Shown: piece after piece, positions 37,845 through 55,070 of the stretch
How positions within the stretch are numbered: the stretch's first letter is position 1
Layout of the letters: the number at the start of each line of letters is the position of its first letter
Origin: Croceimicrobium hydrocarbonivorans
GTDB taxonomy: Bacteria > Bacteroidota > Bacteroidia > Flavobacteriales > Schleiferiaceae
Length of the DNA: 64,000 bases
Direction of reading: 5' to 3'
NCBI RefSeq assembly: GCF_014524565.1
Contig: NZ_CP060139.1
Location: 2,921,501-2,985,500 of the forward strand
The notes under the pieces: model-generated
Told to the model about the DNA's origin: nothing
The model's input: only the letters and a program-made list of their open reading frames with translations
The model's database searches: none
Position numbers and translations under genes: made by a program

Positions 37845-37854
37845 GGATAGATTT

Positions 37855-37876
37855 AGACGATAGACAATAGACTTTA
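37855..37876. repeat. Short degenerate AGAC-GATAG repeat after ilvE
   Basis: Between the ilvE stop and its terminator lies a run of near-identical words, AGACGATAG, AGACAATAG and AGACTTTAG, each starting eight bases after the last. The word AGACGATAG returns twice at 38737-38745 and 38758-38766 in the large non-coding tract, so both places hold the same repeat family. No coding or folding role is evident. Confidence 0.6.
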
Positions 37877-37883
37877 GATATTA

Positions 37884-37908
37884 GAGGCCTCCGAAAGGGG
37901 GCCTTTTT
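37884..37908 (+). terminator. Rho-independent terminator of ilvE
   Basis: GGCCTCC and GGGGGCC pair (one T-G wobble) around a GAAA tetraloop and are followed by five T. It lies about 40 bases after the ilvE stop. Confidence 0.9.
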
Positions 37909-37983: not shown

Positions 37984-38619
37984 ATGAATTTTTACCTTAT
38001 AAAAATTGTTTTTTTTGGAATAGCCATCTTCGTCTATTTCTGGAGAAGGGAACAGGCACGGGAAGCCAAGGAGCGTCAATCATTTTATTTTAACCCCGAT
38101 CCAAATTCTATCCTACGCCTGCTTCCGGTAGAAAATCGAATGGACTTAAAGGAGGAGTTTCGCCAGCTGCATTTAAACTCTGGTAAAGGTTCTAAGCCTT
38201 ATTTAAGCGAAGCGGGTTTTCGATTTCCTGAGCCTAGCCATCCAATTTTGGATCGAAAAATAACAAAGGATAGTCTGTCGAAAGTTTTAGGTCAAGCTAA
38301 TTTGCCAGTGCGGTTCGAATGCTCTACTGGCGATCAAGCAGGGGATTTTATGCTTAAAAAGAGCCATGGCTATGGATGGAACGGCCAGGGCATCTGTTTT
38401 ACTTTTAATAAAGAAAACCTGGTTAACGAAATTTGGATTGCTGGAGACTTGGCTTCTGTTTATCCTAAAATGAAGCCTGTCTTATTGGATTTGGGTAAGA
38501 AATGGAATTTGTTGCTGGCAGATTCTAAGCGGCAGAAAACCATTAGTCTCAGTAATGAAGATGCTCTGGATGAATATTACTTCCGTGAGGAAGAAGAAGT
38601 TCGGAGTAGAATGAGTTAG
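37984..38619 (+). CDS. Small membrane-anchored protein of unknown function
   Basis: I do not recognise this 211-residue protein. It starts with one hydrophobic segment (YLIKIVFFGIAIFVYFW) followed by a basic stretch, which suggests a cytoplasmic C-terminal part. The rest is soluble, mixed alpha/beta, with GYGWNGQGICFTFNKENLVNEIWIAG as two halves of a possible beta hairpin. Codon use looks like that of neighbours. No close partner gene: ilvE upstream is separated by a terminator and the repeat tract follows downstream. Confidence 0.65.
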   Translation: MNFYLIKIVFFGIAIFVYFWRREQAREAKERQSFYFNPDPNSILRLLPVENRMDLKEEFRQLHLNSGKGSKPYLSEAGFRFPEPSHPILDRKITKDSLSKVLGQANLPVRFECSTGDQAGDFMLKKSHGYGWNGQGICFTFNKENLVNEIWIAGDLASVYPKMKPVLLDLGKKWNLLLADSKRQKTISLSNEDALDEYYFREEEEVRSRMS

Positions 38620-38696: not shown

Positions 38697-39140
38697 GTAA
38701 TTGGTAGATTGTAGTTGGTCGTTGGTAGATTGTTTGAGACGATAGTATATAGACTATAGACGATAGAATTGATCGAAACAGTAGCTAGTCGTTGGTTAGA
38801 CGGAGGATAAAAGATGTTTTTCATCCATTTATAAGGAGTTGTGAATCTAACCGCAAAGAAGCAAAGTTTCGCAAAGTTTCGCAAAGTATCTCACTAATAA
38901 CCGATAGGCCTCTGCGACCCTCTGTGCTCTCTGATTCTCGAGCGAAGCGGGCGGTGAGGCTAACCGCAAAGACGCCAAGAAGCACCTGCCTGCCGGTAGG
39001 CTGGAAGGTCCGCAAAGCCTCTCTCATTATTTAACAATGAAACTTCCTGCCCTACAATTGGTCTCTGTGCACCTCCGCGTCCTTTGTGCCTCGAGCGAAG
39101 CGGGCGGTGAAGTAAGTAGCGAAGCGGTAAAAACCGCAAA
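38697..39140. repeat. Non-coding tract of degenerate interspersed repeats
   Basis: The gene-free stretch 38620-39194 holds several repeat types. TTGGTAGATTGT occurs at 38701-38712 and 38722-38733. AGACGATAG occurs twice at 38737-38766. A ten-base unit GCAAAGTTTC is repeated in tandem at 38861-38890, the third copy with one change. A 21-base string containing CGAGCGAAGCGGGCGG occurs exactly at 38937-38957 and 39090-39110. A near-palindrome (CCTGCCTGCC / GGTAGGCTGG) lies at 38985-39004. CCGCAAA or CGCAAAG words recur throughout. Short frames on both strands read these words and are not believable genes. Similar word families are known to litter Bacteroidota intergenic regions, but their origin is not clear. 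Confidence 0.8.
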
Positions 39141-39194: not shown

Positions 39195-40487
39195 CTAAAG
39201 TCCGAAGGCTTCTTTAACATCCGCTACCCGGTCTAGTTTTTCCCAGGTAAAGAGTTCTACTTCCATTTCCTTGCTTTCGGTGCCAATTCCATCCGGACGT
39301 TCGAAAGTCATTTTTACGGTCTCATTCTTACGTCCCATGTGGCCATAGGCAGCAGAGGCCGAATAAATAGGATTACGCAGCTTTAGGTTTTTCTCGATCA
39401 AACCTGGACGCAGGTCAAAGAGTTCAATCACCTTAGCGGCAATCTGACCGTCATTCAAATCAACTTTTGCACTGCCATAGGTGTCTACAAAAACACCCAT
39501 CGGTTCTACTACACCAATGGCGTAGGATACCTGCACTAAAATTTGATCGGCAACACCAGCAGCTACCAAGTTCTTGGCAATATGACGCGCAGCATAAGCA
39601 GCACTGCGGTCTACCTTACTGGGATCTTTACCGCTAAATGCACCACCGCCGTGAGCACCCTTACCTCCGTAGGTGTCTACGATAATCTTACGTCCGGTAA
39701 GACCCGTGTCGCCATGTGGTCCGCCAATTACGAATTTACCGGTAGGGTTAATATGGTATTTAATATCCTCACCAAACAAAGCTTGCAATTCGGGGCTAAG
39801 CTGAGCTTTTACTTTAGGGATAAGGATAGAGATAATGTCTTCACGAATTTTATTCAGCATTTGGATGTCGGCATCCTCCTGACTAAGACCATTGCCCGCT
39901 TTTACAAAATCGTCGTGTTGGGTAGATACCACAATGGCATCAATGCGTTGAGGTTTGTGGTCATCATCGTATTCGATGGTTACCTGAGCCTTTGCATCTG
40001 GACGGAGGTAGGCGATTTCACTGGCATCGCGACGAAGGTCGGCCAGGGTTTGTAAAATGCGATGACTTAAATCCAATGCCAAAGGCATGTAGTTTTCAGT
40101 TTCATTGGTGGCGTAACCGAACATCATACCCTGATCTCCTGCACCTTGCTCTTCAATATTGCCACGGTCAACGCCTTGGTTAATATCCTGACTTTGCTCG
40201 TGAATAGCCGACAGGATACCACAAGAATTACCCTCGAACATGTATTCGCTTTTGGTGTAACCAATTTTGTTGATCACATTACGGGCAATCTGCTGGAGGT
40301 CGAGATAGGTTTGGGATTTTACCTCACCCGCCAAAACAACCTGGCCGGTAGTAACCAAAGTTTCACAGGCTACTTTAGAGTTAGGATCAAAAGCCAAGAA
40401 ATGATCCAGGATGGAATCAGAAATCTGATCAGCAATTTTATCGGGATGTCCTTCAGAAACGGACTCTGAGGTGAATAAGTAAGACAT
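39195..40487 (-). CDS. metK: S-adenosylmethionine synthetase
   Basis: MetK makes S-adenosylmethionine from methionine and ATP. The 430-residue product has [18 protein letters not shown] at the start, [12 protein letters not shown], the glycine-rich loop [25 protein letters not shown] in two conserved halves, and [16 protein letters not shown]. It is about 45 residues longer than E. coli MetK owing to small insertions, normal for Flavobacteriia. Its product is the ligand of the riboswitch found 1.2 kb away upstream of the metH-metF operon. Confidence 0.98.
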
Positions 40488-53988: not shown

Positions 53989-54514
53989 TGTCCTGATAAA
54001 GCTCCAATAAGCCTTCAGGGAGCTCCATTTCTATGAGCTGCTCTTCGCGAGATATACGCAGTATAAATGGGTCGATGGCCGGAATCAGAATTTCCTTTTC
54101 ATCGGCATCAATCACCTTAAAAAGAGGCTGGGCGCTGGTGTCGAGAACATCTTCGCAGATCCCAATTTCCTGACCTTGATGCATTAGGCGAAAGCCAATA
54201 ACCTCGTGGAAGTAGAAGTTCTTTCCATCCAAAGGTGGGAGCACGCTCAGCGGAAGCCAAAGCTCTTTCCCTATTAATTGACGGGCCGCGGGTTCATCAT
54301 CAACATCTTCTAGTTTCAAGATGAAATGCCCCTTGGAATTGCGGCTACTTTCGTCAATAAAAAAGGGAATCAGTTCCCCTCGATCTTCGAGAAAAACCGA
54401 TTCCAAATTTTCGTAGGCTTCGGGTCGGTCGGTGTCGAATACGGCCACGACTTCGCCTTTAAAGCCATGTAAACGGCTGATGTGACCGAGTTGAAAACAA
54501 TCTTCGATGCGCAT
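53981..54514 (-). CDS. rimM: 16S rRNA processing factor RimM
   Basis: RimM helps mature the 30S head with S19. I start at ATG 54514 (MRIEDCFQLGHISRLHGFKGEV), giving 177 residues, the family size. The frame is open a further 46 codons upstream, but those overlap the rpsP tail in another frame and read as lysine/leucine repeats. The N-terminal RimM domain is followed by a PRC-barrel with YFHEVIGFRLMHQGQEIG and ILIPAIDPFILRI. It lies 13 bases after rpsP. Confidence 0.95.
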   Translation of the reverse strand: MRIEDCFQLGHISRLHGFKGEVVAVFDTDRPEAYENLESVFLEDRGELIPFFIDESSRNSKGHFILKLEDVDDEPAARQLIGKELWLPLSVLPPLDGKNFYFHEVIGFRLMHQGQEIGICEDVLDTSAQPLFKVIDADEKEILIPAIDPFILRISREEQLIEMELPEGLLELYQDNA

Positions 54515-54527
54515 CAGCTTAGTTTTT

Positions 54528-55070
54528 TTAGCCTTCTTTTTCCTCAGAAGCAGCTTCCTCTGCAGGAGCTTCTTCGGTAGCGGCTTCTTCAGCGCTAGCT
54601 TCGGCTTCAGCTTCAGCGGCAGCTTGTGCTTCGGCAGCTTTGCGGGATTCATTCACCACGCGCTCAGCTTCCAGAGCTTTAGCTTTAGCTTCTTCTTGAG
54701 CTTTAGTTAGGCCGTCTTTTTTTGAATTGATCTTGGTGGCTTTTTCTTCCATCCAAGCATCAAAACGCTTTTCAGCTTCAGCTTCGTCAAATGCACCTTT
54801 CTTAACACCTTCTAAAAGGTGTTTTTTCATCATTACACCCTTGTAGCGTAAGATAGCTCGAGCCGTATCGGTAGGCTGAGCCCCTTTCATTACCCAATCT
54901 AAAGCACGCTCGAAATTGATTTCGATAGTCGCAGGATTAGTGTTGGGATTGTACTGACCTAAGCGCTCGATGTATTTACCATCACGCTTTACACGAGAGT
55001 CAGCTGCTACAATTGTGAAGATAGGGCGGCCTTTGCGGCCATGACGTTGCAAACGAATTTTTGTTGCCAT
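54528..55070 (-). CDS. rpsP: Ribosomal protein S16 (bS16) with alanine/glutamate-rich tail
   Basis: S16 is needed for 30S assembly. Residues 1-80 are the normal domain: [26 protein letters not shown], with [15 protein letters not shown] and [19 protein letters not shown]. Residues 80-180 form an extension, first lysine rich ([20 protein letters not shown]) and then nearly only alanine and glutamate. The protein is about twice the E. coli length. It leads an operon with rimM and trmN6 behind an exact -7 box. Confidence 0.97.

Follow-up and report, generated by a model that had tools for sequence, protein, structure and literature searches.

We think it probable that the tract at positions 38697-39140 of the window (the whole 64,000-nucleotide stretch of DNA that was analysed) belongs to a non-coding composite of nested small dispersed repeats, of which it is one intergenic copy; slippage or recombination would produce the patchwork structure of this composite, and recombination the exchange of gene blocks at its copies. 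The element is a lineage-limited composite of widely distributed small repeats, and it coincides with gene-block relocation: between the genome of the window (G000) and that of a sister species (G001), the presence or location of gene blocks differs exactly at the edges of the elements. For the most part, small dispersed repeats lack an explanation, although they are common. The two sister species provide two states of the same loci, which link a small repeat with whole gene blocks being relocated or lost.

A non-coding mosaic next to metK

The tract (444 nt) lies in a 575-base gap between two convergent genes, namely a 211-aa ORF (37984-38619), for which a Pfam search returned no match, and metK (39195-40487, minus strand), whose apparent terminator it adjoins. 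It ranked first of the 573 stretches of the window tested for repeated 9-mers, with 36 of them, whereas 500 dinucleotide shuffles gave 0.44 on average and never more than 7. The stretch ranked second, 54391-54945, has 13 repeated 9-mers in 444 nt.

The original prediction, made from the sequence alone, described a mosaic of several short repeat families, and its coordinates and words were confirmed. TTGGTAGATTGT occurs twice (38701 and 38722), as does AGACGATAG (38737 and 38758); the 21-mer CTCGAGCGAAGCGGGCGGTGA is present in two exact copies, at 38937 and 39090, with a spacing of 153; and 38985-39004 is CCTGCCTGCCGGTAGGCTGG, a GC-rich imperfect palindrome. The ten-base GCAAAGTTTC, reported as occurring three times, has two exact copies (38861 and 38871), the third one (38881) bearing one mismatch. 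The words CGCAAAG, CTCTGTG and CTCTGCG, which were said to recur, were counted five, two and one times, respectively. It was also correctly noticed that no frame looks like a gene, since the sole ORF of at least 80 aa within the tract is an 80-aa frame with a TTG start, and the copies of the element in the sister species G001 differ by many indels.

To describe the element, a clean copy at 3.704 Mb of the chromosome was split into three modules, A (TTGGTAG and GAGACGATAG words), B (AACCGCAAAGACGCGAAG...CTCTGTGCACCTCCGCGTCCTTTGTGCCTC) and C (TAGCGACGAAGGAGCGGGCGGTGAGG), and a 20-bp palindrome, P (CCTGCCTGCCGGTAGGCGGG). The order A-B-C recurs among the copies, and P is embedded at several positions (hyphens mark its ends below). 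The window copy is organized as follows:

38703-38773, plus strand: module A (TTGGTAG / GAGACGATAG words), 90% identical to the module of the 3.704-Mb copy
38774-38847, plus strand: A-B linker, with a by-eye likeness to the linker of the G000 element at 3684.2 kb (GGACTGAGGACAAGAGATGTTGTTTTC...)
38849-38936, plus strand: first B unit, with the 5' arm words AACCGCAAAG and CGCAAAG
about 38901-38914, plus strand: locus-specific B variant CCGATAGGCCTCTG, within the first B unit
38937-38957, plus strand: module C, first 21-mer CTCGAGCGAAGCGGGCGGTGA
38961-38984, plus strand: second B unit, 5' part (AACCGCAAAGACGCCAAGAAGCA), a phylum-wide word
38985-39004, plus strand: palindrome P, CCTGCCTGCCGGTAGGCTGG, nested at GCA-P-AAG of B
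39005-39092, plus strand: second B unit, remainder
39063-39092, plus strand: 3' arm words CTCTGTGCACCTCCGCGTCCTTTGTGCCTC of the second B unit, 100% identical to the 3.704-Mb module
39090-39127, plus strand: module C, second 21-mer CTCGAGCGAAGCGGGCGGTGA followed by TAGCGAAGCGG

Directly behind ilvE, at 37852-37890 of the window, TAGACGATAGACAATAGACTTTAGATATTAG echoes the A-type word AGACNATAG, and a similar stretch occupies the same place in G001.

Copies in this genome and in its relatives

A search with the full tract and a mapping of the copies relative to genes, both proposed along with the original prediction, yielded 55 matches in the 4.04-Mb chromosome of G000 and elements that are intergenic, in an orientation independent of that of the genes. 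About 16 clusters located at 3.598-3.705 Mb are all on the plus strand, whichever way the genes on either side of their gaps point. The plus strand also carries the window copy and the minus strand the clusters at 3.357-3.368 Mb, while those at 1.744 Mb are mixed. The GC skew of G000 is mostly positive on the plus strand at 2.92-3.75 Mb and negative at 1.74 Mb (1.738-1.750 Mb), a pattern opposite to the usual leading-strand pattern, given the location of dnaA at position 540. That the shared orientation is a plain replication-strand effect was rejected: the clusters at 3.357-3.368 Mb are inverted, in a region where the sign of the GC skew is mostly unchanged.

The composite was found at E<=0.001 in four of 59 genomes (G000 itself and relatives). 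G001 has 20 matches, with flanks about 90-95% identical; G002 has two weak ones and G020 a single weak one of 25 bases. The composite as such is abundant only in G000 and its sister species G001. The many scattered copies with sequence drift and conserved word order that, according to the original prediction, would support a spreading element do exist in these two species, and the composite is not widespread beyond them; the idea of a spreading repeat is thus partly supported. Alignment of the orthologous gaps of G000 and G001 showed that whole modules have been gained and lost while the flanking genes have not moved. As they are short, non-coding, scattered in intergenic DNA and devoid of genes of their own, the elements belong to the general class of small dispersed repeats; the best place for them is with the nested palindromic repeats of this class, rather than in a REP, integron or RNA family. 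A literature search retrieved no paper naming these sequences, which is weak evidence of absence as subscription papers were largely out of reach.

At 3684577-3688917 of G000, three tandem paralogues of about 413 aa are each followed by an element, and a fourth stretch related to them, without a long ORF, lies at 3682945-3684168. This array resembles a gene-plus-element tandem duplication.

Gene blocks at the edges of the elements

The link to gene-block relocation was not foreseen by the original prediction. In G001, the ilvE-metK gap comprises an element, a 5.7-kb block and another element. The block (about five genes, encoding an HU-type DNA-binding protein, three proteins without a Pfam match and a PQQ/BamB-like relative) is collinear with positions 3678459-3684168 of G000, which are 718 kb from the window copy and are bounded by elements there too. 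A PQQ/BamB-like protein of 414 aa, a relative of that encoded by the block gene, is tandem-repeated with elements in G000. The B variant CCGATAGGCCTCTG was found only in the window element among the G000 stretches examined, and in two diverged copies in G001, one at each end of the block. Because the two ends carry different versions of this variant, a collapsed or misjoined assembly of G001 is unlikely to account for the block difference. The block ends of G001 both carry a portion of the resident element, a duplication that a single simple crossover would not by itself produce, and the modules are too reshuffled to fix the crossover points in the comparison of G000 with G001.

At 3651.2-3653.3 kb of G000, two element clusters bracket one 342-aa gene, and the G001 counterpart has the same outer flanks with one element and no gene. 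A stretch of about 33 kb of G000 (3671.7-3705.6 kb), which includes cas9 and an IS3-type transposase and of which the block found at metK in G001 is a part, has as its G001 counterpart only 1.7 kb, in which an element lies. These loci were chosen for carrying elements, and no enrichment of breakpoints at elements is claimed; at least one difference between G000 and G001, of 8.8 kb, occurs without any element, and congeners devoid of the element exchange genes in the ilvE-metK gap as well.

We propose that gene blocks would leave and enter through recombination between elements in direct orientation, a process that would keep the elements at 3.6-3.7 Mb in one orientation with genes pointing either way. 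The simplest account of movement would be slippage and recombination among the many short direct repeats, which would both rewrite the modules and move the blocks.

Within the element-dense zone, positions 3690000-3701000 of G000 encode a 1363-aa Cas9-type protein, next to ORFs of the size of Cas1 and Cas2 and to two long gaps devoid of ORFs; this Cas9 region is missing from the corresponding place in G001. In G004, the ilvE-metK gap (contig C12, 300203-300860) contains 81-aa and 139-aa ORFs resembling a VapBC-type toxin-antitoxin pair.

Module B, a probable descendant of a widely distributed hairpin repeat

As part of the explanation that we regard as probable, module B would descend from an ACCGC...GCGGT hairpin repeat occurring in many phyla. 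AACCGCAAAGNCGCNAAG was found in 21 of 396 Bacteroidota genomes (13 genera), at 57 places or more, as compared to one for the reversed control. The 20-base head of B, TTTAACCGCAAAGACGCNAAG, occurs in at least 118 stretches of a one-genome-per-species collection, where about 0.5 is estimated by chance. Judging from record titles, the head is present in at least 11 phyla: the matches listed are mostly from Bacteroidota, and the others are from Chloroflexota, Calditrichota, Planctomycetota, Poribacteria, Acidobacteria, Armatimonadota, Edwardsbacteria, Proteobacteria, Verrucomicrobia and Cyanobacteria, the records outside Bacteroidota being mostly metagenome assemblies in which misbinning could inflate the list of phyla. 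The head is mostly intergenic, as 19 of the 125 listed sites fall in ORFs of at least 100 aa, though such ORFs make up 85% of the bases. It is followed within about 210 nt by CTTTGCGGTT, with at most one mismatch, at 40 of these 125 sites versus 0.8% of the control stretches. Such abundance in distant phyla, far above chance, means that the spread of protein-free repeats can now be addressed with defined sequences and sites.

The head is often part of a full hairpin in other genomes. In Flavobacterium-type copies, a strong hairpin (z -6.6 and -8.4 at two loci) has this head as its 5' arm, and another palindrome, CCCGATAGCTATCGGG, is nested between CGCAA and GCAAAG-type words (as read off the copies, uncounted). 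The CGCAAAG and CTTTGCG/CTCTGTG words travel together because they are the two arms of one hairpin. The original prediction had viewed them as one sequence copied and shuffled on both strands; the words do recur, and the two arms of a hairpin that is intact elsewhere offer a simpler basis for it. In G000 and in the window this hairpin is decayed, since the folding of the two window units does not surpass that of shuffles (z -0.19 and 0.11) and a single one of the nine B units tested in G000 folds clearly better (z -3.55). The statement, also in the original prediction, that similar word families occur in intergenic regions of Bacteroidota holds for two pieces, the B word AACCGCAAAGNCGCNAAG and P, and not for the composite as a whole.

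A bolder reading, which we advance tentatively and consider doubtful, is that TTTAACCGCAAAG...CTTTGCGGTTAAA represents a protein-free, intergenic hairpin family that extends over at least 11 phyla, serves repeatedly as a landing place for small palindromes that differ between genera and, in the present lineage, has turned into a platform for the exchange of gene blocks through recombination, as an integrase-free cassette system.

Palindrome P and a proposed origin of the patchwork

Of 297 Bacteroidota genomes, 33 (from 31 genera) contain P, whereas the control gave no hit. G000 has 38 P-like sites, and the flanks of P in this genome read GCA-P-AAG or CTC-P-TAG. In G000 and G001 taken together, the filled points of B are GCA-P-AAG (seven cases), CTC-P-AGCG (seven) and AACCGCA-P-AAG (five), and the matching points of B devoid of P number 9, 27 and 33, respectively. 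The comparison of filled and empty points in these two genomes revealed no duplication of target bases. In four further junctions, of the form GCA-P-TAGCG, a single P connects the left flank of site one with the right flank of site two. Such junctions are what a P-to-P deletion would leave, and they reveal a concrete route by which the patchwork is rewritten. The patchwork would be generated by the insertion of P and, subsequently, by slippage among the numerous direct repeats or by their recombination through short homologies.

We dropped the rule that P targets hairpin loops: at 92 P sites from genomes other than G000, stems in the flanks do not exceed those of controls in strength overall (p=0.27), a strong stem being present at 6 of the 92 sites versus 0.8% of the controls. 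In another family of the same class, in G065 (contig C2, 1200428-1232703), P is clustered, with eight copies in 32 kb that lie mostly within a different repeat, CGTCATTCCGAGCACCAGCGAGG-P-AATC. At four loci of G104, the repeat that hosts P, CGTCATTGCGAGGGAG-P-GAACGACCGAAGCAATC, is a further word family with a wide distribution in bacteria.

Alternative explanations and known systems

The elements might be passive junk that gathers where genes turn over anyway, their coincidence with block ends merely reflecting tolerance. Such a view would accommodate the ilvE-metK gap, which holds different genes in four element-free congeners (G002-G005), and the array zone with its IS3-type transposase and cas9; we nevertheless find it unlikely, as the block ends match element edges in G000 as well as in G001, and each end of the block carries the locus-specific B variant. 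Somewhat less likely still is a REP/REPIN-type family whose present or past spread would depend on a Y1 (HUH) tyrosine transposase (RAYT), the strand preference of which would explain the orientation of the elements. As in the REP, BIME and REPIN families associated with RAYT (PMC2817692, PMC3116915, PMC3733652), we are dealing with short intergenic palindromes in many copies, arranged in composite mosaics and inserted without long target duplication, and in G194 one P lies within 0.5 kb of a Y1 gene. Yet, a PF01797 search found no Y1 transposase in G000 and only one weak hit in G001, and Y1 genes are not associated with P, occurring in 27 of 32 genomes with it and in 28 of 34 without it. In addition, the clusters at 3.357-3.368 Mb point the opposite way, the GTAG tetranucleotide expected at one end of REP/REPIN palindromes (PMC3733652) is absent from the P ends in G000, and the present composite is larger and contains non-palindromic modules. 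The CGTC-tagged palindromic repeats, which have been described in Bacteroidetes among others (PMC3733652), are similar in host group and in reportedly having no dedicated transposase, but a CGTC tag was not observed where B or P ends.

A structured RNA or a cis-regulatory element under selection appears very improbable. It would be consistent with the full hairpins of other genomes, but not with the shuffle-level folding of the window B units, with a module content that changes fast between sister species or with an orientation independent of genes; besides, no Rfam match above threshold was obtained in the window, and 12 element or hairpin loci gave only an unrelated tRNA. Least credible of all is a true integron, in which the elements would be attC-like sites and the blocks would be cassettes moved by an integrase. 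Integron cassette arrays do share repeats in direct orientation separating exchangeable gene blocks, but TIGR02249 detected no IntI (the best score was 83.5 bits for a cut-off of 265, with no candidate within 3.35-3.71 Mb), the genes have both orientations relative to the repeat, and the element is much longer, with 300-450 nt of internally shuffled modules. Concerning MITEs, intact hairpins with inverted ends exist elsewhere and no clean empty site with a duplication was found, the transposon search having covered Y1 and IntI. The composite of nested small dispersed repeats, which is the explanation we prefer, can be likened by description to the GC clusters of fungal mitochondria, which are protein-free, short GC-rich palindromes nested in one another, whereas the elements reported here reside in a bacterial chromosome.
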